Shown here one piece after another: positions 52,219 to 60,937 of a DNA stretch of 64,000 nucleotides. This DNA is from an uncultured bacterium (lineage in GTDB: Bacteria > Verrucomicrobiota > Kiritimatiellia > CAIKKV01 > CAIJXV01). Made by a program: the position numbers and the translations under genes. The stretch's first letter is position 1; each line of letters opens with the position of its first letter. The notes below the pieces were generated by a model. The model was given only the letters and a program-made list of their open reading frames with translations, was not told the origin of the DNA and searched no databases. The stretch spans positions 1 to 64,000 of the forward strand of contig CAIJXV010000101.1 in assembly GCA_903824675.1 (NCBI GenBank), in the 5' to 3' direction.

Positions 52219-52455
52219 GGGCTGACGAGGTCGACGAGTGGCTATGAGTCGGCTGCCCGGTCCAACCTTGTTAGGGGTTAATTATCCTGGAGCGGGTTCC
52301 TGCGGGAAGGCTTATCCCCGATCCCGAAGCCAGCCGATTTCCTCCGATCGCTTCGAATCGATCAGCCGGTTGTGACGACAGCACTGGATTATTTTCTCGA
52401 ATAGCGTAATAATTCAGGCTTCTGTTGGAATAGGAAACGAGAGGGGGAATGACCC

Positions 52456-53016
52456 GTGACGGATGAGGAACTCGATGAACTCGTAGCCCAGGTGCAGGCC
52501 GGCGATTCGGATGCCTTCACCGAATTGGTTTACGCGATCCGCAAGGAATTGCGGATTTTCATCTCCGCTCACGCCTATTCCGCCGATATGGTCGAGGAGG
52601 TTTTGCAGGCCACCCTGGTCGTCTGCTATGAAAAAATCCATAAATATGAACTCCGGGGTACCTTTCTCTGCTGGGTGAAAGGAATTGCCCGGAACCTGAA
52701 CTTCAAAGAGCTGTCCTCACGCTCCCGATACTTGAACGCGAAGGATGATTTTTTGGACCGGCTGGTCTTGGATTCGGCTCTGGAGACTTTCGGGGGCGCT
52801 CAAGATCGGGCGGAAGAGTGGGTCGAGCGGTTGAAGGTCTGCATCGGGAAATTGCCGGCGGATTCACGGGCGATGATCGAAAAGCGGTATTTCGAAAATA
52901 TGAGCATTCGGACCCTGGCACAAGTTCTTGAAAAGCCGGAAAGCTGGACGGCGGTGAATTTGTATCGAATTCGCGAAATTCTGCGAAAGTGCATGATGGG
53001 GGAGGTGGCGAAATGA
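52456..53016 (+). CDS. ECF-type RNA polymerase sigma factor
   Basis: A 186-residue sigma-70 family factor of the PVC type (Rhodopirellula/Verrucomicrobium subgroup). Region 2 (about 12-75: FTELVYAIRKELRIFISAHA, and LQATLVVCYEKIHKYE) recognises the -10 element. Region 4 (about 118-178: LKVCIGKLPADSRAMIEKRY and an HTH with NMSIRTLAQVLEK) binds the -35 element. It uses a GTG start with GAGGGGGAA upstream. Its last four bases overlap the next gene's start, the usual sigma/anti-sigma coupling. It probably controls the downstream metabolic genes. Confidence 0.88.
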   Translation: MTDEELDELVAQVQAGDSDAFTELVYAIRKELRIFISAHAYSADMVEEVLQATLVVCYEKIHKYELRGTFLCWVKGIARNLNFKELSSRSRYLNAKDDFLDRLVLDSALETFGGAQDRAEEWVERLKVCIGKLPADSRAMIEKRYFENMSIRTLAQVLEKPESWTAVNLYRIREILRKCMMGEVAK

Positions 53017-54773
53017 ATGAACCGGAATTCGCCCTGTTGACTGAAAAATATCTCGATGGAACACTGACGCCTGTGGAACGGCGGGAGTTGGTCGAGTTCT
53101 TATTGGCCCATCGCGATCGCCAGCACGACTTCGCGGAGCAGGTTCGCCAACATCTGCGTTTGACGGCTCAGATGCGCCCCTGCGACCGCGCGGAAGCGCG
53201 CAAGACGGCGGAAATCATCCTCGATGTAATCGAAAAGGAATCTCTTCCGGCGTCGCGCGTCCGGCCTCCCGTGATCACCGAGCCGACCTTTAGAGAGACG
53301 ATCCGGGCGGTCTGGCACGGGTTGCGGGCGCCGCGGGATTCGGGTGAGTATAAATTTGCGCGGTTCATGCTGTGGCGGTTGTGCGGGCCGGGGCCGTTGG
53401 CGGTGGGATTGAGTTTGCTGTTGATTTTTCTGCTGATCAATTTTGTAGTGGAGGAGCGGAATCGTCCGCCGGACGAAGGCATTACGGTGATTTTACGCGA
53501 TACGCCCGAAGTGGTTCCGGGTGCCGAGGCGCTCACGGAGAACCTTCCCAATATTCCCATCGAGAGACCGACCCTGGAGCCGACCGTGGATTCCAAGTTG
53601 ACCGATCCCTCAACTGCCGGGGCCTTGGCCGATACGGAGTCGCTTTCAACTCCTGTGCCAGATAAGGATGATTCGGTTTCGCCGGCGATCGGAATGTCTC
53701 CCCGCCTGAATCCCAGCACGCGAATTTTAGCCCATGTGGCGCCGGGCCGGACCGGGCCGGGTCGGCAAGACGCCTTACGGAAATACGATGCCCCTCCGGG
53801 ATTGGAGAAAGCCGTCCTCAAGGCTTTGTATTGGTTGAAGGAGCAACAGCGGCCGGATGGCGCCTGGGATGGGACCGACCGCGCGGCCATGACGGGATTG
53901 GCGTTACTGACTTTCCTGGCACATGGGGAAACGCCCAGTTCCGGCGAATTTGGAGGAACCGTGGAAAGGGCCATCCGTTATTTATTGGGTATCCAACGCC
54001 CGGATGGTTCGTTTTCGGCGAATGAGTATGCCCATGCCATAGCGGTGACGGCCATCGGGGAGGCATCCGCCATGACCCGGATCATGATCCTGGGAGAAGC
54101 GACGGATCGGGGGTTGGGTGTGATCCTGCGCGGACAGCAGGATTCGGGAGGGTACGATTATGGTTACGGAAAGGGGGGCCGGTCCGACACATCGGTGACC
54201 GGCTGGCAATTGCAAGCGATGAAATCGGCGGTTTTGGCCGGGAATACGGATACCCGGTTGGCGGCTTCCATCAACCGCGGGGTTGATTTTTTAAAACGCC
54301 AGGCTTGGGCTTTGGATGGATCAGGCTTTGTTTATGCCTCAATTCCGGGGCAATCGGCGGGGGCGGGGGGGACCTGGTCGATGACGGCGGTGGGTTCGCT
54401 GTGTCTGTCCCTGCTGGCGCACCAGGAACAGGGCGGCTTGATTCGGCAGAGCCTGAAGCGACTTGAATTATCTTATCCGCCCTGGGATGCAGCCGATCAA
54501 AAAAAACCGGTTTATAGTTGGTACTATGCCACTCAGGCGAAATTCCATGCCGGCGGGCATGACTGGAGCGAGTGGAACCACCATTTCGCCCGGGATCTGA
54601 TGACCTCCCAAAAAGCGGATGGGCATTGGGAGGGTGGAGACCACGACAGCGGCAGTCATGTCTATACGACAACGCTTTCCACACTGATGCTGGAAGTGTA
54701 TTATCGCTACCTGCCTTCCTATGCCTGGAATTCCAAGGGGGGGTGGGCGAGAAGGATTTATCGTCCGAGGTGA
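53013..54773 (+). CDS. Membrane anti-sigma-like protein with squalene-cyclase-like alpha/alpha-toroid domain
   Basis: A 586-residue protein in three parts. The cytoplasmic N-terminus (1-125) has the anti-sigma/FecR-like pattern YLDGTLTPVERRELVEFL seen next to PVC ECF factors. One membrane helix spans about 128-146 (LSLLLIFLLINFVV). A Pro/Thr-rich linker (about 150-245) leads to a prenyltransferase/squalene-cyclase-type toroid (about 265-570) with several QW-like motifs: QQRPDGAW (278-285), QRPDGSF (328-334), QQDSGGY (375-381) and QKADGHW (533-539). The cyclase catalytic DxDD motif is not seen, so the toroid is more likely a sensor than an enzyme. It overlaps the sigma gene and touches the UbiA gene with no gap. 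Confidence 0.8.
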   Translation: MNEPEFALLTEKYLDGTLTPVERRELVEFLLAHRDRQHDFAEQVRQHLRLTAQMRPCDRAEARKTAEIILDVIEKESLPASRVRPPVITEPTFRETIRAVWHGLRAPRDSGEYKFARFMLWRLCGPGPLAVGLSLLLIFLLINFVVEERNRPPDEGITVILRDTPEVVPGAEALTENLPNIPIERPTLEPTVDSKLTDPSTAGALADTESLSTPVPDKDDSVSPAIGMSPRLNPSTRILAHVAPGRTGPGRQDALRKYDAPPGLEKAVLKALYWLKEQQRPDGAWDGTDRAAMTGLALLTFLAHGETPSSGEFGGTVERAIRYLLGIQRPDGSFSANEYAHAIAVTAIGEASAMTRIMILGEATDRGLGVILRGQQDSGGYDYGYGKGGRSDTSVTGWQLQAMKSAVLAGNTDTRLAASINRGVDFLKRQAWALDGSGFVYASIPGQSAGAGGTWSMTAVGSLCLSLLAHQEQGGLIRQSLKRLELSYPPWDAADQKKPVYSWYYATQAKFHAGGHDWSEWNHHFARDLMTSQKADGHWEGGDHDSGSHVYTTTLSTLMLEVYYRYLPSYAWNSKGGWARRIYRPR

Positions 54774-55697
54774 ATGTTGAAGTCCGTTAAAAATATTGTG
54801 GCCGGTTGGTTGACGCTGGCCCGGTTGCCCAATCTGCTGACCGTTCCCGGTGACCCGTTAGCCGGGTATCTGCTGGTGACCGGCACGCTGGCCTTTACCC
54901 ACTGGCTGGCGGTGGCACCGTTGATGGGCTCGGCCCTGATGCTCTACCTTGCAGGAATGCTGGGCAACGATTATTGTGACCGGACGTTAGACGCGGTGGA
55001 AAGACCGGAGCGCCCTCTGCCGATGGGGCTGATCCCCCCGCGGGCGGTATGGGCGGTGGCCTGGGGGTTGACTTTTGCAGGGGTGGGTTGTGCCGGGTGG
55101 GTCAGTCTTTTTAGCGGGGGAGTGGCCGCTGTTTTGGCGGTTTTGATCTGGCTTTACAATGGTGGAGTGAAACGGAGTGCGATATGGGGGCCGCTGAATA
55201 TGGGCGCGTGCCGTGGCGCCAGCCTTCTGCTGGGTGGATCTTTGGCGGGACCCAAGGAGCTGTTTGTTTATTCCGATCTGGCGGTGGCGGTGGTCGGTTA
55301 TGTCTTGCTGGTGGCGATCATTACCCGGATTGCGCGGGATGAAACGCGGTTGGCCCATCCCGGCCTTCGGCGGTTGGTTCCCGGTTGTGTGACCGCGTTG
55401 GTTCTCTTGAGATTGGCGTGGCCATTCCCGCTTGAGGGATGGGGCGATCCCCTGTTCGGTTGGATGATGGCGGGATTGACGGCGATCTGGATGCTGGCGG
55501 TGGGCGTGGTGTTACCCGGACGAAAGGCGCGGCCCGAACAGACCCGGCAGGCCATCGGTCAATGGATTTCAGGTTTTTTGTTGTGGCAGGCGACTCTGTG
55601 TGTGGTATCGGGTTATCCCAGCCGGGTGCCCTCGATGATTTTGGTCGCGGCATTTCCCATCTATGGATGGGTCGCGCGTCGTTTCAAGGGAAGTTGA
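54774..55697 (+). CDS. eboC: UbiA-like prenyltransferase, EboC-like
   Basis: A 307-residue integral membrane protein of the UbiA superfamily with eight to nine helices. The first Asp-rich motif is NDYCDRTLDAVERPERPLP (binding Mg and the prenyl diphosphate); the second is replaced by a DETR-type segment (IARDETRLAHP), as in EboC-type members. UbiA enzymes attach isoprenoid chains to aromatic rings. Ebo clusters are associated with prenylated or aromatic metabolite export in diverse bacteria and algal endosymbionts, for example around scytonemin. The start ATG directly follows the toroid stop; EboF and EboD follow. EboC identity rests partly on this context. Confidence 0.78.
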   Translation: MLKSVKNIVAGWLTLARLPNLLTVPGDPLAGYLLVTGTLAFTHWLAVAPLMGSALMLYLAGMLGNDYCDRTLDAVERPERPLPMGLIPPRAVWAVAWGLTFAGVGCAGWVSLFSGGVAAVLAVLIWLYNGGVKRSAIWGPLNMGACRGASLLLGGSLAGPKELFVYSDLAVAVVGYVLLVAIITRIARDETRLAHPGLRRLVPGCVTALVLLRLAWPFPLEGWGDPLFGWMMAGLTAIWMLAVGVVLPGRKARPEQTRQAIGQWISGFLLWQATLCVVSGYPSRVPSMILVAAFPIYGWVARRFKGS

Positions 55698-55712
55698 AAG
55701 AGGCGGAGTCAC

Positions 55713-57013
55713 ATGAAACAAAAACTACTGGTTATTCAAGCCGCCGGGCTGGGCTATGAATTCTTAAGGCATTGGCAGGCCGAACGCCTCGAGAATCTGG
55801 AGTTTCAGTCCTGTGCCCCGGTTTTTCCAGCCCTGACCTGTACCGCCCAGGCCGCCTTCCGGACGGGCGCTGATCCGGTTCGGCAGGGGATGCCAGCCAA
55901 CGGTTTTTATCTTCGACCGGAACAGCGCGCGCACTATTGGGACCAGTCTGCGGCTTGGGTGGAAGGACCACGGATTTGGTCGGCGTTTCGCGCCAGGGCC
56001 GGCGGGTCGGCCTGATTTGCTGGCAACAAAGCCTGGGGGAATCCGCCGATCTGATTCTATCCCCCGCGCCCATTCATCGCCATGGCGGGGGGATGATTCA
56101 ATCCTGTTATGCCTGGCCCCGTGAATTAGAGGCCGATTTGCGTGAGGCGCTGGGGCGTTCATTCAACCTGTTTCACTACTGGGGGCCGCTGGCTTCGCCC
56201 CGGGTATCGCATTGGATTGCCGAGGCCACGGCTGAAATCATGACTCGGTCGCGCTATGCGCCCGACTTGTTGCTCACCTATCTGCCGGCGCTCGATTACG
56301 ATCTGCAACGGTATGGGCCGGAGGATCGCCGGGCCCGGCGGGCGCTTGAACAATTACGGGGGGATTTGCGTCTGCTCTTGAAAACGGCGGCCGTAATGGG
56401 CTATGAGGTTCTGATCGCCGGGGATTACGCGATCACCCGGTGCGGAGCGGGCGTCATCCTTCCCAATCGACGACTGGCCGAGAGCGAGTGGATGGCGACG
56501 CGGCGGGTTGGACGAATGGACTATCCCGACTATTTTCGCAGTCGCGCTTTTACCCTGGTCGATCATGAGGTGGCGTGGGTTTACCTGCAGGATCCGCGCG
56601 ATGCCGACGCGGTACGGACGATCCTGGCGGAGGATCCGGGAATCGGATCGATTCTAGGCCCGCAGGAATTGGAGGCGCGGGGTTGGGGTCATTCCCGTGC
56701 CGGGGATTTGTTGTTAACCGCCCGGCCCGGCTGGTGGTTTGCCTATCCCTGGTGGACGGATCCGGCGCGGGCACCGGAGTTCGATCGGCATGTCGATATC
56801 CATAACAAGCCTGGATATGATCCGTGCGAATTGTTCTTCGGTTGGCCGCCCCTGTCGGTCAGTCGGGACACGAGTCGGATCCAGGGTACGCATGGAGTCG
56901 ATGGACCCGGTCGCGAGGTGGCGTGGGCGGCGACGTGGACACCCGCGACGGTGCCGGAAAATTGGAATGGACTGGTTTCCGCCGTCCGGGAATGGATGGA
57001 GGGGGTTGGATGA
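55713..57013 (+). pseudogene. eboF: EboF-like nucleotide pyrophosphatase/phosphodiesterase, frameshifted
   Basis: Two overlapping frames make one protein of about 434 residues in the alkaline phosphatase/nucleotide pyrophosphatase superfamily. The first frame (from ATG 55713) covers the start with the Thr nucleophile in FPALTCTAQAAF and ends at a stop at 56013. The second continues the family with RRVGLICWQQSL, LLTYLPALDYDLQRYG and IAGDYAITRCG to 57013. The join is at a G run (55996-55998), where loss of one G explains the break, so it may be a sequencing error or a real mutation. It follows eboC and overlaps the eboD start by four bases. Confidence 0.75.
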
Positions 57014-58269
57014 ACGGGGATAAACATCAGGCTCAGGGCGATGGGAATTGGCAGGTAATCCGGCAGACGATTACAGTGCCTTTTGCCTATCCGGTCTATT
57101 TTGGCCGGGGTCTTTTCGATGCCGCCAATCCGCTGTTGGCAGACGTCCTTGCAGGGACCGTACCGGACCGACGGCCACGGCTGATGGTGTTTGTTGACCG
57201 GGGCCTTTTGAACTCGAGTCCCGACTTGATCCAACGGATCAACGCTTGGTTGGCCACCTGGTCGCACCGGTGTGAAGGGGTTGCTCCTCCGGTGGTTTGG
57301 GAGGGGGGCGAGGCGGCCAAAACCGGGTGGGAAGGCTTGAAGCGGTGCGTGGAAATGATCGTGCCTTTGCGGTTGGACCGGCAGAGTTATGTAGTGGCGG
57401 TCGGAGGCGGGGCCTTGTTGGATCTGGTGGGGTTGGCGACCGCTCTGATTCATCGGGGTTTGCGGTTGGTACGGGTTCCGACGACGGTGCTGGCGCAGAA
57501 TGATGCCGGGGTGGGAGTCAAGAACGGGATCGATGCCTGGTCGACCAAGAACCTGATTGGCACTTTTGCCCCGCCGTATGCCGTGATCAATGATTATGAT
57601 TTTTTGGATTTACTGGATGAAGTGGATTGGCGCGGGGGCATTGCCGAGGCCTTCAAAGTGGCGATTATCAAGGATCGTGTTTTTTTTGAAAGCCTTTGCC
57701 GGTCGGTGCCCGCCTTGATGCGTCGGGATCGGGCCGCGATGGAATTTTTGGTGAAACGCTGTGCCGAACTTCATTTGGCCCATATCCGGGAGGGGGGGGA
57801 TCCTTTCGAAATGGGGAGTGCGCGGCCTTTGGATTTTGGCCATTGGCTGGCGCATCAATTGGAGATTCTTTCGGGTTACCGGGTTCGGCATGGACAGGCG
57901 GTGTCGGTGGGGATGGCCGTGGATTGTCTCTTGGCTGAATCCATCGGCTGGTTGACCGGGGCGGAAGCCGGCGCGGTGCTCGACGGGTTGCGATCGGCCG
58001 GCCTTCCGATCTGGGATGATGCTTTGGATCGACGGCAGCCGGATGGACGCCGGCAGATCGTGGAAGGGCTGGAGTCCTTTCGTGAACATCTGGGGGGGCA
58101 ATTGACCTTGACGTTGCCGCGAGGGTTGGGAGCGCGGGATGAAATACATGATGTAGATATGGTTCGATTGGAGCGGGTGTTTGAGCGTTTGGCACGGGGG
58201 GAGAACATAAGCGCGGCCGGGTGTTCCACAGGAAGAAGCAAGCAATCGCCGGCAACAGATGTGAGTTGA
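57010..58269 (+). CDS. eboD: 3-dehydroquinate synthase-like protein, EboD-like
   Basis: A 419-residue member of the dehydroquinate synthase superfamily. The NAD-binding segment is YVVAVGGGALLDLVGLATALIHRG, and the metal-binding active site uses residues in GGIAEAFKVAIIKD, FGHWLAHQLE and HGQAVSVGMAVD. AroB converts DAHP to 3-dehydroquinate; EboD-type and other sugar-phosphate cyclases act on different substrates. The RLVRVPTTVLAQNDAGVGVKNGI block, with Ala-Gln-Asn where AroB has Ala-Gln-Val-Asp-Ser, and the ebo context favour EboD over AroB. The frame is open upstream, but the ATG at 57010 overlaps the eboF stop and gives the expected length. Confidence 0.8.
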   Translation: MNGDKHQAQGDGNWQVIRQTITVPFAYPVYFGRGLFDAANPLLADVLAGTVPDRRPRLMVFVDRGLLNSSPDLIQRINAWLATWSHRCEGVAPPVVWEGGEAAKTGWEGLKRCVEMIVPLRLDRQSYVVAVGGGALLDLVGLATALIHRGLRLVRVPTTVLAQNDAGVGVKNGIDAWSTKNLIGTFAPPYAVINDYDFLDLLDEVDWRGGIAEAFKVAIIKDRVFFESLCRSVPALMRRDRAAMEFLVKRCAELHLAHIREGGDPFEMGSARPLDFGHWLAHQLEILSGYRVRHGQAVSVGMAVDCLLAESIGWLTGAEAGAVLDGLRSAGLPIWDDALDRRQPDGRRQIVEGLESFREHLGGQLTLTLPRGLGARDEIHDVDMVRLERVFERLARGENISAAGCSTGRSKQSPATDVS

Positions 58270-58293
58270 CTCGGATTATCGGCAAACGTATGT

Positions 58294-59649
58294 TTGACCG
58301 ATCCTATGCCAGCGAATCAAAAAAAGGGACCCTCGGCCGCACGTGAAGCCGAATCAGTGGTCGTGGGCGTGCCGGCGCCCGAATTTCAATTTATGGGATT
58401 CACCGGGCGATGGCCGGCGACTTTTCGCGCTTTGCGGCATCGTAATTTCCGGCTTTTCTGGTTTGGGCAGATGATTTCGCTGACCGGAACGTGGATGCAG
58501 TGGGCGGCGCAAGGGTGGCTGATCGCGATCCTGGTGCAATCTCAATATCACCAGGAAAATTCCTCACTTCACAATGGAATGATCGGCGTGTTGGGGGCTT
58601 TGCCGATGACATTCCTGACCCTTTTCGCCGGGACGTTTGCCGATAAATACGACCGTCGGCGCATGCTGATTTTGACGCAGACGTTGTTGATATTTCCCGC
58701 TCTGGCGTTAGGGCTCCTGTCCCTCGCATCGGTTTTGCGGATCTGGCATATCGCGGTTTTGGCGGTGATCACCGGGGTGATCAATTCGCTGGATATGCCC
58801 GTCCGCCAGGCCTTTGTAAAGGATATGGCGGGGCAGGAGGATGTGCCGAACGCGATCGCCCTGAATTCGACCGTATTCAACGCGGCTCGTTGCGTGGGGC
58901 CATTGATCGCCGGTGCGCTGATGGCTCACACCCGGTTTGGCATATCGGGGGTTTTCATTCTCAATGCGATCAGTTTTCTGCCGGTTATTTGGGGGCTTTA
59001 CCTCATTCGCCATGTCCATGTTCGGCACGCATCGGCCAATGTCGATACCGTTACGCATCTACGCGAGGGATTTCGGTATGTGGCGGGGAACTTGACGATT
59101 CGCTGGCTGCTGGCTTTGATGGCGGTGTATAGCACTTTCGGGTTTTCCTATGCGGTTCTCTTGCCGACCTTCGCCCGTCAGGTGCTTCATCTGGGTGCGT
59201 TGGGATACGGCTCGCTGTTGTCATCGGTCGGTTGGGGGGCCATCGGGGGCGCCTTGCTTTTTGCCGCGGTTCAACAGCGGGTGGGGAAGGGTCGGATGAT
59301 GTTGGCTGGCGGAATTTGTTGTGCCCTAGGGCTGATGAGTTTCAGTTTGATCCGGAGTTATTATTTTTCTCTCTTTTTTAGCCTGCCGTTAACGGGAGTG
59401 GGATTGGTGGTGTCCACGGCGTGTATCAACAGTCTGATCCAGCAAATCACGCCGGATCATTTGCGCGGGCGTATTGTGAGTATGTGGGCATTTATTTTCG
59501 CGGGGTTCGGTCCGGTCGGGTTGGCCTATGCGGGGATGGTGGGGCATTTTGTTTCGCCCGCGGTCGCGATTTTCTTCGGTGGATTGACCTGTTTCGCCGC
59601 CGTAATGTATTTGGCGATTTCAGCTCCCTGGTTCTATCGGCAGGAATAA
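58294..59649 (+). CDS. MFS transporter, EntS-like exporter
   Basis: A 451-residue major facilitator with about ten to twelve helices. The N-terminal LRHRNFRLFWFGQMISLTGTW is the hallmark of the EntS/MFS_3 group, which includes siderophore and drug exporters. The conserved loop DKYDRRRMLILTQ follows helix 3. The start is a TTG at 58294 with weak context, or the Met at 58306. It lies 24 bases after eboD, so it probably exports the product of the ebo enzymes; the substrate is unknown. Confidence 0.85.
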   Translation: MTDPMPANQKKGPSAAREAESVVVGVPAPEFQFMGFTGRWPATFRALRHRNFRLFWFGQMISLTGTWMQWAAQGWLIAILVQSQYHQENSSLHNGMIGVLGALPMTFLTLFAGTFADKYDRRRMLILTQTLLIFPALALGLLSLASVLRIWHIAVLAVITGVINSLDMPVRQAFVKDMAGQEDVPNAIALNSTVFNAARCVGPLIAGALMAHTRFGISGVFILNAISFLPVIWGLYLIRHVHVRHASANVDTVTHLREGFRYVAGNLTIRWLLALMAVYSTFGFSYAVLLPTFARQVLHLGALGYGSLLSSVGWGAIGGALLFAAVQQRVGKGRMMLAGGICCALGLMSFSLIRSYYFSLFFSLPLTGVGLVVSTACINSLIQQITPDHLRGRIVSMWAFIFAGFGPVGLAYAGMVGHFVSPAVAIFFGGLTCFAAVMYLAISAPWFYRQE

Positions 59650-59674
59650 GGGGACCGGAGCCTGAAGGAAAACC

Positions 59675-60937
59675 ATGGGGAAATTCATTAAATTGACTCT
59701 TCGCCGATGGGTGATCGCTGGGCTCCTGATTCTGGGGCTGGGGCTCGGTTGGGTGGGGGGATGTCCGTCTCTTTTCCTGGGCGGGACCTTCTCCGGGCAA
59801 CCCGAGGACCTGAACCAGCATTTGAGTCGCCCGGCGCATGCCCTTCTGGCCCAAGCACTGGGTGGCGTCGGGGCGGAGCCGCTGGTGGATTATCATGCGC
59901 ATATCATCGGTATAGGGACGGGAAACAGTCAGGCCGAAGTGAATCCGGCCCTGTTGCACGGGTGGCGTCCCGTGAAAAGACTGAATACCGGCATTTTTCT
60001 CAGCGCCTGCGGAGTCAGCGATTTTTCTCGTTTGGACCAGGAATATGTGGAGCGATTGGTTCGTTTGGTCCGGGGGGTTGGCCATCCGGTTAAGATGCAT
60101 ATTCTGGCCTTTGATCATGCCTATCGCCCCGATGGTACGATTAATCAGCGGCTGGGTACCTTTTATGTGCCGAACGAATATGTGGTTCAATTGGCGGAGC
60201 AATATCCCGATGTGTTTGTTCCCGTCATTTCGGTGCATCCCGATCGACCGGATGCGCTGGTCGAGCTCGAAAAGTGGGCGCAACGGGGGGTGCGGTACGT
60301 GAAGTGGCTGCCCAACGCCCAGGGAATTGATCCTTCATCTCCACGCTGTGACGGGTTTTATGCGGTGATGAAAAAATACGACATGGTTCTATTGACCCAT
60401 GCGGGGAAGGAAAAGTCCCTTGATGTCTGTTCTCAGGCGTTCGGCAATCCGCTTTTGCTCCGTCGGCCTTTGGATCAGGGCGTCAAGGTGATCCTGGCGC
60501 ATTGTGCCAGTGCGGGTCGTAATGCGGATTTGGACCATCCCGGCGTTCAAGCCGGCAACTTCGATCTATTTCTGAGATTGATGGAGACGGAAAGTTATCG
60601 CGGCTTATTATTTGCCGATATCTCAGCCCTGACCCAGGTCAATCGGACTCCCCAGCCGATTCTGGAATTGATCCGACGTCCGGAATTACATAGCCGATTG
60701 GTGAATGGCAGTGATTATCCGCTCCCGGCGATCAACTGCCTGATTTGGACGCGGAAGCTGGCCCGGATGGGGCTGATTACTCCCCAGGAACGGCGCTGTC
60801 TGAATGAGATTTATAATTACAATCCCTTGCTTTTTGATTATGTACTGAAGCGGACGATCCGGGATCCGGTGACCGGGAAACAACTTCCCGTCAGTGTATT
60901 TTTGCAAAATCCTGGAATTGTCGAGAATCCGCGTTGA
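59675..60937 (+). CDS. Membrane-anchored amidohydrolase family protein
   Basis: A 420-residue amidohydrolase (PF04909-like). An N-terminal helix (about 11-33, VIAGLLILGLGLGWVGG) anchors it or serves as a signal, placing the enzyme outside the cytoplasm. Metal ligands are seen in VDYHAHIIGIG (His-x-His), VKWLPNAQGIDPSSP with Lys, LLTHAGKE, VILAHCASAGR and the C-terminal VNGSDYPLPAIN with Asp. Related enzymes include decarboxylases and hydrolases of aromatic acids. It lies 25 bases after the MFS gene with a GGAG-containing ribosome binding site, so it may act on the same compound. Confidence 0.78.
   Translation: MGKFIKLTLRRWVIAGLLILGLGLGWVGGCPSLFLGGTFSGQPEDLNQHLSRPAHALLAQALGGVGAEPLVDYHAHIIGIGTGNSQAEVNPALLHGWRPVKRLNTGIFLSACGVSDFSRLDQEYVERLVRLVRGVGHPVKMHILAFDHAYRPDGTINQRLGTFYVPNEYVVQLAEQYPDVFVPVISVHPDRPDALVELEKWAQRGVRYVKWLPNAQGIDPSSPRCDGFYAVMKKYDMVLLTHAGKEKSLDVCSQAFGNPLLLRRPLDQGVKVILAHCASAGRNADLDHPGVQAGNFDLFLRLMETESYRGLLFADISALTQVNRTPQPILELIRRPELHSRLVNGSDYPLPAINCLIWTRKLARMGLITPQERRCLNEIYNYNPLLFDYVLKRTIRDPVTGKQLPVSVFLQNPGIVENPR

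Follow-up and report, generated by a model that had tools for sequence, protein, structure and literature searches.

Pairs of an extracytoplasmic function (ECF) sigma factor and a class I membrane anti-sigma factor (RpoE-RseA; TIGR02989) combine a sigma2-sigma4 protein with an overlapping downstream gene and an element in front of the operon, and the class I anti-sigma domain (ASDI) is laid out as an N-terminal three-helix bundle plus a fourth helix (PMC7406223). When such a pair takes part in Fec-type signalling (FecI-FecR), it is tied to a system energised by ExbB and ExbD together with TonB. Bacteria of the Planctomycetes-Verrucomicrobia-Chlamydiae (PVC) group possess a new class of force transducer, encoded by an operon for TPR, TolQ/ExbB and two ExbD/TolR proteins and a one-transmembrane transducer with an S-x3-H helix motif and a vWA arm (PMC12204202). 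The ebo cluster, which includes eboC, eboD and eboF, has been described as well (PMC5133447, PMC6282210, PMC9235831). In this study, we analysed a 64-kb stretch of DNA (64,000 nucleotides, referred to as the window) from an uncultured bacterium of the class Kiritimatiellia, in which genes for an ECF sigma factor and a putative membrane protein with an alpha/alpha-toroid stand directly in front of eboC, eboF and eboD. We read positions 52406-58269 as an autoregulated ECF sigma/membrane anti-sigma operon whose sensor copies a motor-linked toroid and which controls an ExbBD motor and, mostly, eboC-F-D; we put the probability of this reading at roughly 0.6.

The gene pair in the window resembles RpoE-RseA-type pairs in its predicted cytoplasmic helical domain, single transmembrane helix and periplasmic domain. 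However, the periplasmic domain would here be an alpha/alpha-toroid that copies a motor-linked protein, the element is GTAATAT-N14-GTAATACG instead of the classical AAC and CGT boxes, and no anti-sigma domain of Pfam is recognisable. As in Fec-type signalling, a putative ECF sigma/anti-sigma pair is tied to an ExbB/ExbD-energised system, although no outer-membrane receptor is encoded in the window block (the rest of the genome was not searched for a TonB-dependent receptor), the link is the paralogy of the anti-sigma periplasmic domain to a putative transducer, and the operon of the sigma gene appears to regulate itself. The ExbBD-toroid operon to which this paralogy leads has the same layout as the vWA transducer operons, and both transducers carry a disordered linker and a globular C-terminal domain, but an alpha/alpha-toroid replaces vWA, and toroids are unmentioned in the text of PMC12204202. 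As in the known ebo cluster, EboD and candidate EboC and EboF proteins are encoded, with the genes for EboB and EboE at other places of the genome, whereas the order C-F-D(-E), the detached EboB, the undetected EboA and the sigma-toroid genes in front set the locus apart. Squalene-hopene cyclases share the alpha/alpha-toroid with QW-like repeats; in contrast to them, the toroid here has no DxDD motif, scores far below the curated cut-offs, and is predicted to have a membrane tether and a cytoplasmic domain.

The ebo genes are widespread. What is new is an element shared by the region before the sigma gene and the inside of the ExbBD-toroid operon in a few related uncultured bacteria of the PVC group, which suggests, as far as sequence can tell, control of both. 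A cognate, signal-gated sigma factor in front of ebo genes would, if true, provide a handle on when these genes are needed, and the paralogy between an anti-sigma sensor and an ExbBD-linked toroid suggests that a domain can be common to force-transducing machines and the regulators that belong to them. The link also points to a class-wide TPR-ExbB-ExbD-ExbD-toroid operon. Literature searches returned no description of such an operon, of anti-sigma toroids, or of ExbD together with squalene-cyclase-like proteins.

A sigma factor gene paired with a membrane toroid gene

All seven genes from the sigma factor to the amidohydrolase (52456-60937) were placed on the plus strand by open reading frame (ORF) and hidden Markov model (HMM) analysis. 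These analyses, together with AlphaFold2 (AF2) and Foldseek, bore out an earlier sequence-only reading of the block as encoding a sigma factor, a transmembrane toroid with four QW-type motifs, a UbiA protein, an EboD-like cyclase, a major facilitator superfamily (MFS) transporter and a membrane amidohydrolase. The sigma gene (52456-53016, GTG start) encodes 186 residues and exceeds the cut-offs of PF08281 (sigma4_2; 28.5 versus 25.7 bits) and TIGR02937 (46.1 versus 42.9 bits), identifying an ECF sigma factor with sigma2 and sigma4 as its only domains, even though the sigma2 domain itself reached only 19.4 bits, under its cut-off of 24. Its best model is TIGR02989, the Rhodopirellula/Verrucomicrobium subfamily, but the score of 103.5 bits is below the 124.55 bits needed for membership.

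The ATG of the second gene (53013-54773) overlaps the sigma stop codon. Its 586-residue product, a putative membrane anti-sigma factor, begins with a candidate anti-sigma domain defined by AF2 secondary structure (residues 1-95; 53013-53297), followed by a single transmembrane helix at about residues 125-150 (53385-53462), which was located by hydropathy (maximum 2.6 at residue 128) and by an alignment of 24 toroid proteins. A proline-rich linker connects this helix to the alpha/alpha-toroid domain (53751-54773), and four Q-x3-G-x-aromatic repeats are found in the protein at residues 279, 328, 375 and 533. ATGA overlaps join the sigma stop to the toroid start and the eboF stop to the eboD start, and the gap between the toroid gene and eboC is 0 bp. 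These zero gaps and overlaps from the sigma gene onward imply co-transcription. The spacings of 0-4 bases claimed earlier for most of the block hold at these three junctions, but not between eboC and eboF (15 bp), eboD and the MFS gene (24 bp or more) or the MFS and amidohydrolase genes (25 bp). A scan for sigma70 promoters and terminators gave matches at chance level.

For comparison, we used the rest of the window genome (G000; C numbers denote its contigs), a set of 17 genomes of the same order, and class sets of 56, 58 or 288 genomes. The window sigma factor is 50-59% identical to those of four order relatives. Its subfamily occurs, with one close copy each, in 9 of the 17 order genomes, which belong to only two families. 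Among 84,980 species scanned, just six close relatives came up, all labelled Verrucomicrobia, PVC group or uncultured bacterium, several of which are probably the same assemblies as order genomes. A one-transmembrane toroid gene begins at the 3' end of the sigma gene in eight of the nine sigma genomes. In G008 (L039:5756-6420), no more of the toroid than its last 43 residues separates sigma from eboC, and the sigma ORF continues into this remnant as a result of either a deletion or a mis-assembly. The eboC gene directly follows the toroid gene in G000, G010, G011, G012 and G016, the remnant in G008, and probably the toroid gene in G014, which was pieced together from two contigs; the G013 contig breaks off inside the toroid gene. 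The order sigma-toroid-eboC-eboF-eboD, for which a conservation check had been proposed, is kept in other genera.

A shared element and the ExbBD-toroid operon

The promoter-like element of the window, GTAATAA-N14-GGAATAGG (52406-52434, plus strand), lies 21 bp 5' of the sigma start codon and is the top-scoring site of the 64 kb (17.0, versus 11.4 for the next). All nine sigma genomes carry this 29-bp element as GTAATAT-N14-GTAATACG, or a close form of it, about 20-30 bp 5' of the sigma start; it contains two GTAATA half-sites in direct repeat. When the 17 order genomes were scanned completely, the remaining perfect or one-mismatch sites were located mainly before toroid, ExbB, ExbD or TPR genes, and those in the motor operons are intergenic. 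A degenerate pattern applied to the 288 class genomes found 15 sites in 11 of the 17 order genomes and five non-repeat sites in the 271 others, while a reversed control pattern found 0 sites in the order genomes.

Over residues 95-580, the toroid protein of the window shares 44% identity with an ExbBD-linked transmembrane toroid of the same genome, whose gene on C16 closes a TPR-TPR-ExbB-ExbD-ExbD(-ExbD)-toroid operon. The order TPR-ExbB-ExbD-ExbD-toroid recurs through the order; of the 20 class loci retrieved, 16 show it, and at the other four it is cut off by the end of the stretch or contig, or lacking. ExbBD-type toroids occur in 46 of 56 class genomes, and many of them have a transmembrane helix of the form GPTGSIILHILIV, that is, with the S-x3-H motif as in TonB and TolA. 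The histidine is absent from all sigma-linked toroids. Because this class-wide operon, often with a TonB-like toroid helix, holds the toroid paralogue, the protein of the window resembles a fusion of an anti-sigma domain with a copied ExbBD-linked toroid. The ExbBD-toroid operon possibly encodes a counterpart of the vWA force transducers that is so far undescribed.

A site matrix was built from the sigma sites only and applied to ExbBD-toroid operons with a threshold score of at least 15. This score was reached by 9 of 10 operons of the sigma lineage versus 1 of 27 others, and the Fisher value of 8e-7 weighs less for our reading than its size implies, since it overstates independence because the compared genomes are related. 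G015 was counted as sigma lineage, although its 78%-complete genome yielded no sigma gene. Column-permuted matrices reached the threshold in a mean of 0.13 of the 10 operons, and never in nine during 300 trials. In the ExbBD operon of the window genome, the site scores lower (15.7) and separates two ExbD genes. The sequence-only reading had suggested looking for a promoter motif common to the sigma gene and distant ebo genes: the conserved element before the sigma gene was found, none precedes the separate EboB and EboE genes, and the search led to the ExbB/ExbD-toroid operon, which had not been foreseen.

The gene order, the one-to-one pairing, the overlaps, the shared element and the paralogy can be read directly from the sequences. 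Beyond these, we infer that the N-terminal helical domain of the anti-sigma factor binds the sigma factor, holding it in the cytoplasm until the periplasmic toroid meets a signal and the sigma factor is released. The ExbBD-toroid operon would encode a TonB-like, presumably proton-driven envelope machine; its toroid would be the source of the sensor half, and the signal would plausibly be the same partner or ligand that this motor-linked toroid handles. The released sigma factor would then read GTAATAT-N14-GTAATACG promoters, transcribing its own operon and all or part of the ExbBD-toroid operon. The co-transcribed eboC, eboF and eboD would provide a portion of the Ebo pathway for metabolite translocation, and the Ebo product and the toroid might be functionally linked. 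Tentatively, and with the odds leaning against it, one may go further: ExbBD with an alpha/alpha-toroid arm could be a further proton-driven transducer, the copy of the arm on the anti-sigma factor its status sensor, and a single sigma factor might match motor and Ebo-metabolite supply to the same periplasmic target.

Several observations weigh against the operon reading. HMM searches of the toroid protein gave no match to a Pfam anti-sigma domain, and AF2 confidence is moderate to low (pLDDT 57 for the full-length protein, 66 for the toroid domain alone), which is enough for the toroid fold and too low for a pocket; therefore, no ligand pocket is claimed. The ExbBD operon of G012 has no good site. 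A frameshift in the window eboF, if real, would mean a broken enzyme in this organism. The sigma-toroid pair of G004 lies 38 kb from its ebo genes, no element precedes eboC in that genome, and an Opp-type ABC permease gene and two ATPase genes follow the pair in place of ebo (G004:C11; L111:7242-13221). The EboE (C18) and EboB (C110) genes of the window genome have no element. Finally, a perfect element precedes an ExbD gene in G009, a genome with no close sigma factor, so another factor may read the element, or the sigma gene may be missing from this 89%-complete assembly.

The arrangement in G004 and the bare EboB and EboE genes, together with the presence of ebo in families without the sigma subfamily, are what one would expect if the sigma-toroid pair controlled the ExbBD-toroid machine only, with ebo placed downstream by inherited synteny and read-through of no functional meaning. 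We consider this rather doubtful: the ebo linkage is kept, with abutting or overlapping genes, in six to seven genomes from two families, and the sigma gene of G008 is still joined to eboC despite the loss of the toroid. A different explanation starts from the perfect site in G009 and from the two half-sites in direct repeat, which could be an operator or promoter for another factor that has the sigma operon among its targets. This is unlikely, however, given the location of the element about 20-30 bp before the start codon, which is where a core promoter would be expected, and the fact that -35/-10 distances of ECF promoters match its spacing. The sites in the ExbBD-toroid operons also track the sigma lineage across genomes.

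Some further sites and loci were recorded. A second exact element of the window genome (G000:C70:38559-38587; L185) lies upstream of genes for secreted proteins and a BatA/vWA-type operon, the latter being assigned by inspection of its sequence and not by HMM. Solitary ExbD genes stand directly 3' of an element in G009 (L162:8441-8469) and G011 (L163:10368-10396). One family of the class (G235, G241, G250, G261 and G282) has many GTAATA-type repeat arrays with a 7-bp period (GTAATAAGTAATAGG). Examples of the TPR-TPR-ExbB-ExbD-ExbD-transmembrane toroid operon are L082:2580-10368 and L201-L220.

Fold of the toroid protein and its candidate anti-sigma domain

AF2 places helices at residues 3-15, 20-32, 34-52 and 59-77, with moderate to low confidence. 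This N-terminal helical domain (about 95 residues) is kept in six sigma-linked toroid proteins and is extra when compared to the ExbBD-linked toroids. The four predicted helices fit the class I anti-sigma layout (PMC7406223), a match that is suggestive but not proof. In a tree of toroids, the five sigma toroids of family f5 form one clade (98/99), while the window toroid was not placed.

Comparison of structures, another check proposed on the basis of the sequence, did recover terpene cyclases of the squalene-hopene type, but the sugar enzyme AprG, the GH76 mannanase and the complement TED domain matched comparably, all with Foldseek PDB TM-scores of about 0.6. At the sequence level, SQHop_cyclase HMM matches were weak, the squalene-hopene cyclase score was 25.7 bits against a curated cut-off of 431, and the DxDD motif was not found in the toroid domains of the sigma-linked proteins, which places them outside the squalene-hopene cyclases. 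The toroid had been proposed to bind an isoprenoid in the periplasm and thereby induce prenylation and export of a metabolite, in line with squalene-hopene cyclases being among the best HMM and fold matches and with eboC encoding a UbiA prenyltransferase. Isoprenoid sensing is not favoured because the fold matches are mixed, with sugar enzymes and complement domains besides the cyclases, and because DxDD is absent; moreover, the nearest relatives of the toroid are ExbBD-linked and not cyclases, and the MFS transporter is not conserved. We regard it as very unlikely.

Four polar residues, H304, E306, H341 and D392, are strongly conserved across the toroids of the 24-protein alignment, and the fold is common among enzymes. 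The protein could thus be a tethered enzyme of the Ebo pathway, a periplasmic cyclase or hydrolase, and no sensor at all. Yet the same residues are present in ExbBD-linked toroids that are not beside ebo, the coupling to the sigma gene is strict, and the extra N-terminal helical domain is found in sigma-linked copies only, making an enzyme role highly improbable. A second, unrelated fusion of an anti-sigma-like part and a toroid was seen in the window genome (G000:C10; L085:6111-7844), with a zinc-finger-like N-terminus (HFQECAIC), a transmembrane helix and a toroid; the contig ends just upstream, leaving any sigma gene beyond view.

The ebo genes and their neighbours

The product of eboC (54774-55697) matches PF01040 over the cut-off (56.8 bits). 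Its best models are NF045897 (SCO3242; 148 bits, cut-off 260) and NF035940 (EboC; 136 bits, cut-off 250), other UbiA models scoring at most 66 bits. The dehydroquinate synthase (DHQS)-like cyclase gene eboD (57010-58269) scored 496 bits with PRK06203 (NF004852; cut-off 333), and a separate AroB is encoded on C116, identifying the gene as eboD. Both proteins are hence nearest to Ebo/SCO3242-type models and not to MenA or AroB, the grouping that would have spoken against an ebo assignment, with eboC below the cut-offs. The gene at the eboF position (55713-57013) encodes an EboF-like phosphodiesterase (PF01663), as had been noted, but not as one ORF: the PF01663 match is split over two frames by a single frameshift near 55,990-56,000, and tblastn with four intact relatives shifts frame at about 55994. 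The two halves are colinear with the corresponding genes of relatives, which are single ORFs of about 430 residues. An assembly error and a real mutation are equally likely.

EboA, EboB and EboE had been reported as absent. None of them is encoded in the window block, but the genome does encode EboE (G000:C18:12446-13594; TIM_EboE, 394.6 bits versus a cut-off of 250) and a TatD-like EboB (G000:C110:11705-12538), 74% identical to an EboB-like protein of G016. Because these genes are on C18 and C110, the ebo pathway is dispersed and not short, and the idea of a shorter ebo variant is not supported. EboA was detected in 0 of 58 class genomes, in a search that lacked a working positive control, which gives no sign of a loss particular to this genome. 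Across the class, 43 of 58 genomes exceed the PRK06203 cut-off, and the 40 loci have a C-F-D core; eboD is directly followed by EboE in 28 of them, and in six a TatD-like EboB precedes eboC. EboB was also considered as a member of the motif regulon and rejected: the matches in G004 (17.1 bits) and G008 (14.6 bits) fall within the 3' part of the preceding gene's coding sequence and disappear in siblings that use different codons there.

The MFS_3/EntS-like transporter gene (58294-59649; PF05977, 211 bits) is outside the conserved block. It was rejected as a conserved ebo partner, as it is absent beside ebo in the 40 class loci, and two relatives have an ABC pair there instead, so the cluster cannot be said to bring its own exporter. 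The last gene (59675-60937) encodes an Amidohydro_2 protein (PF04909) with an N-terminal membrane or lipobox-like segment. A comparison with PDB sequences gave no match, and the gene was likewise rejected as a conserved part, being present in 1 of the 17 order genomes with no order homologue at E 1e-10; it is likely a lineage-specific insertion.

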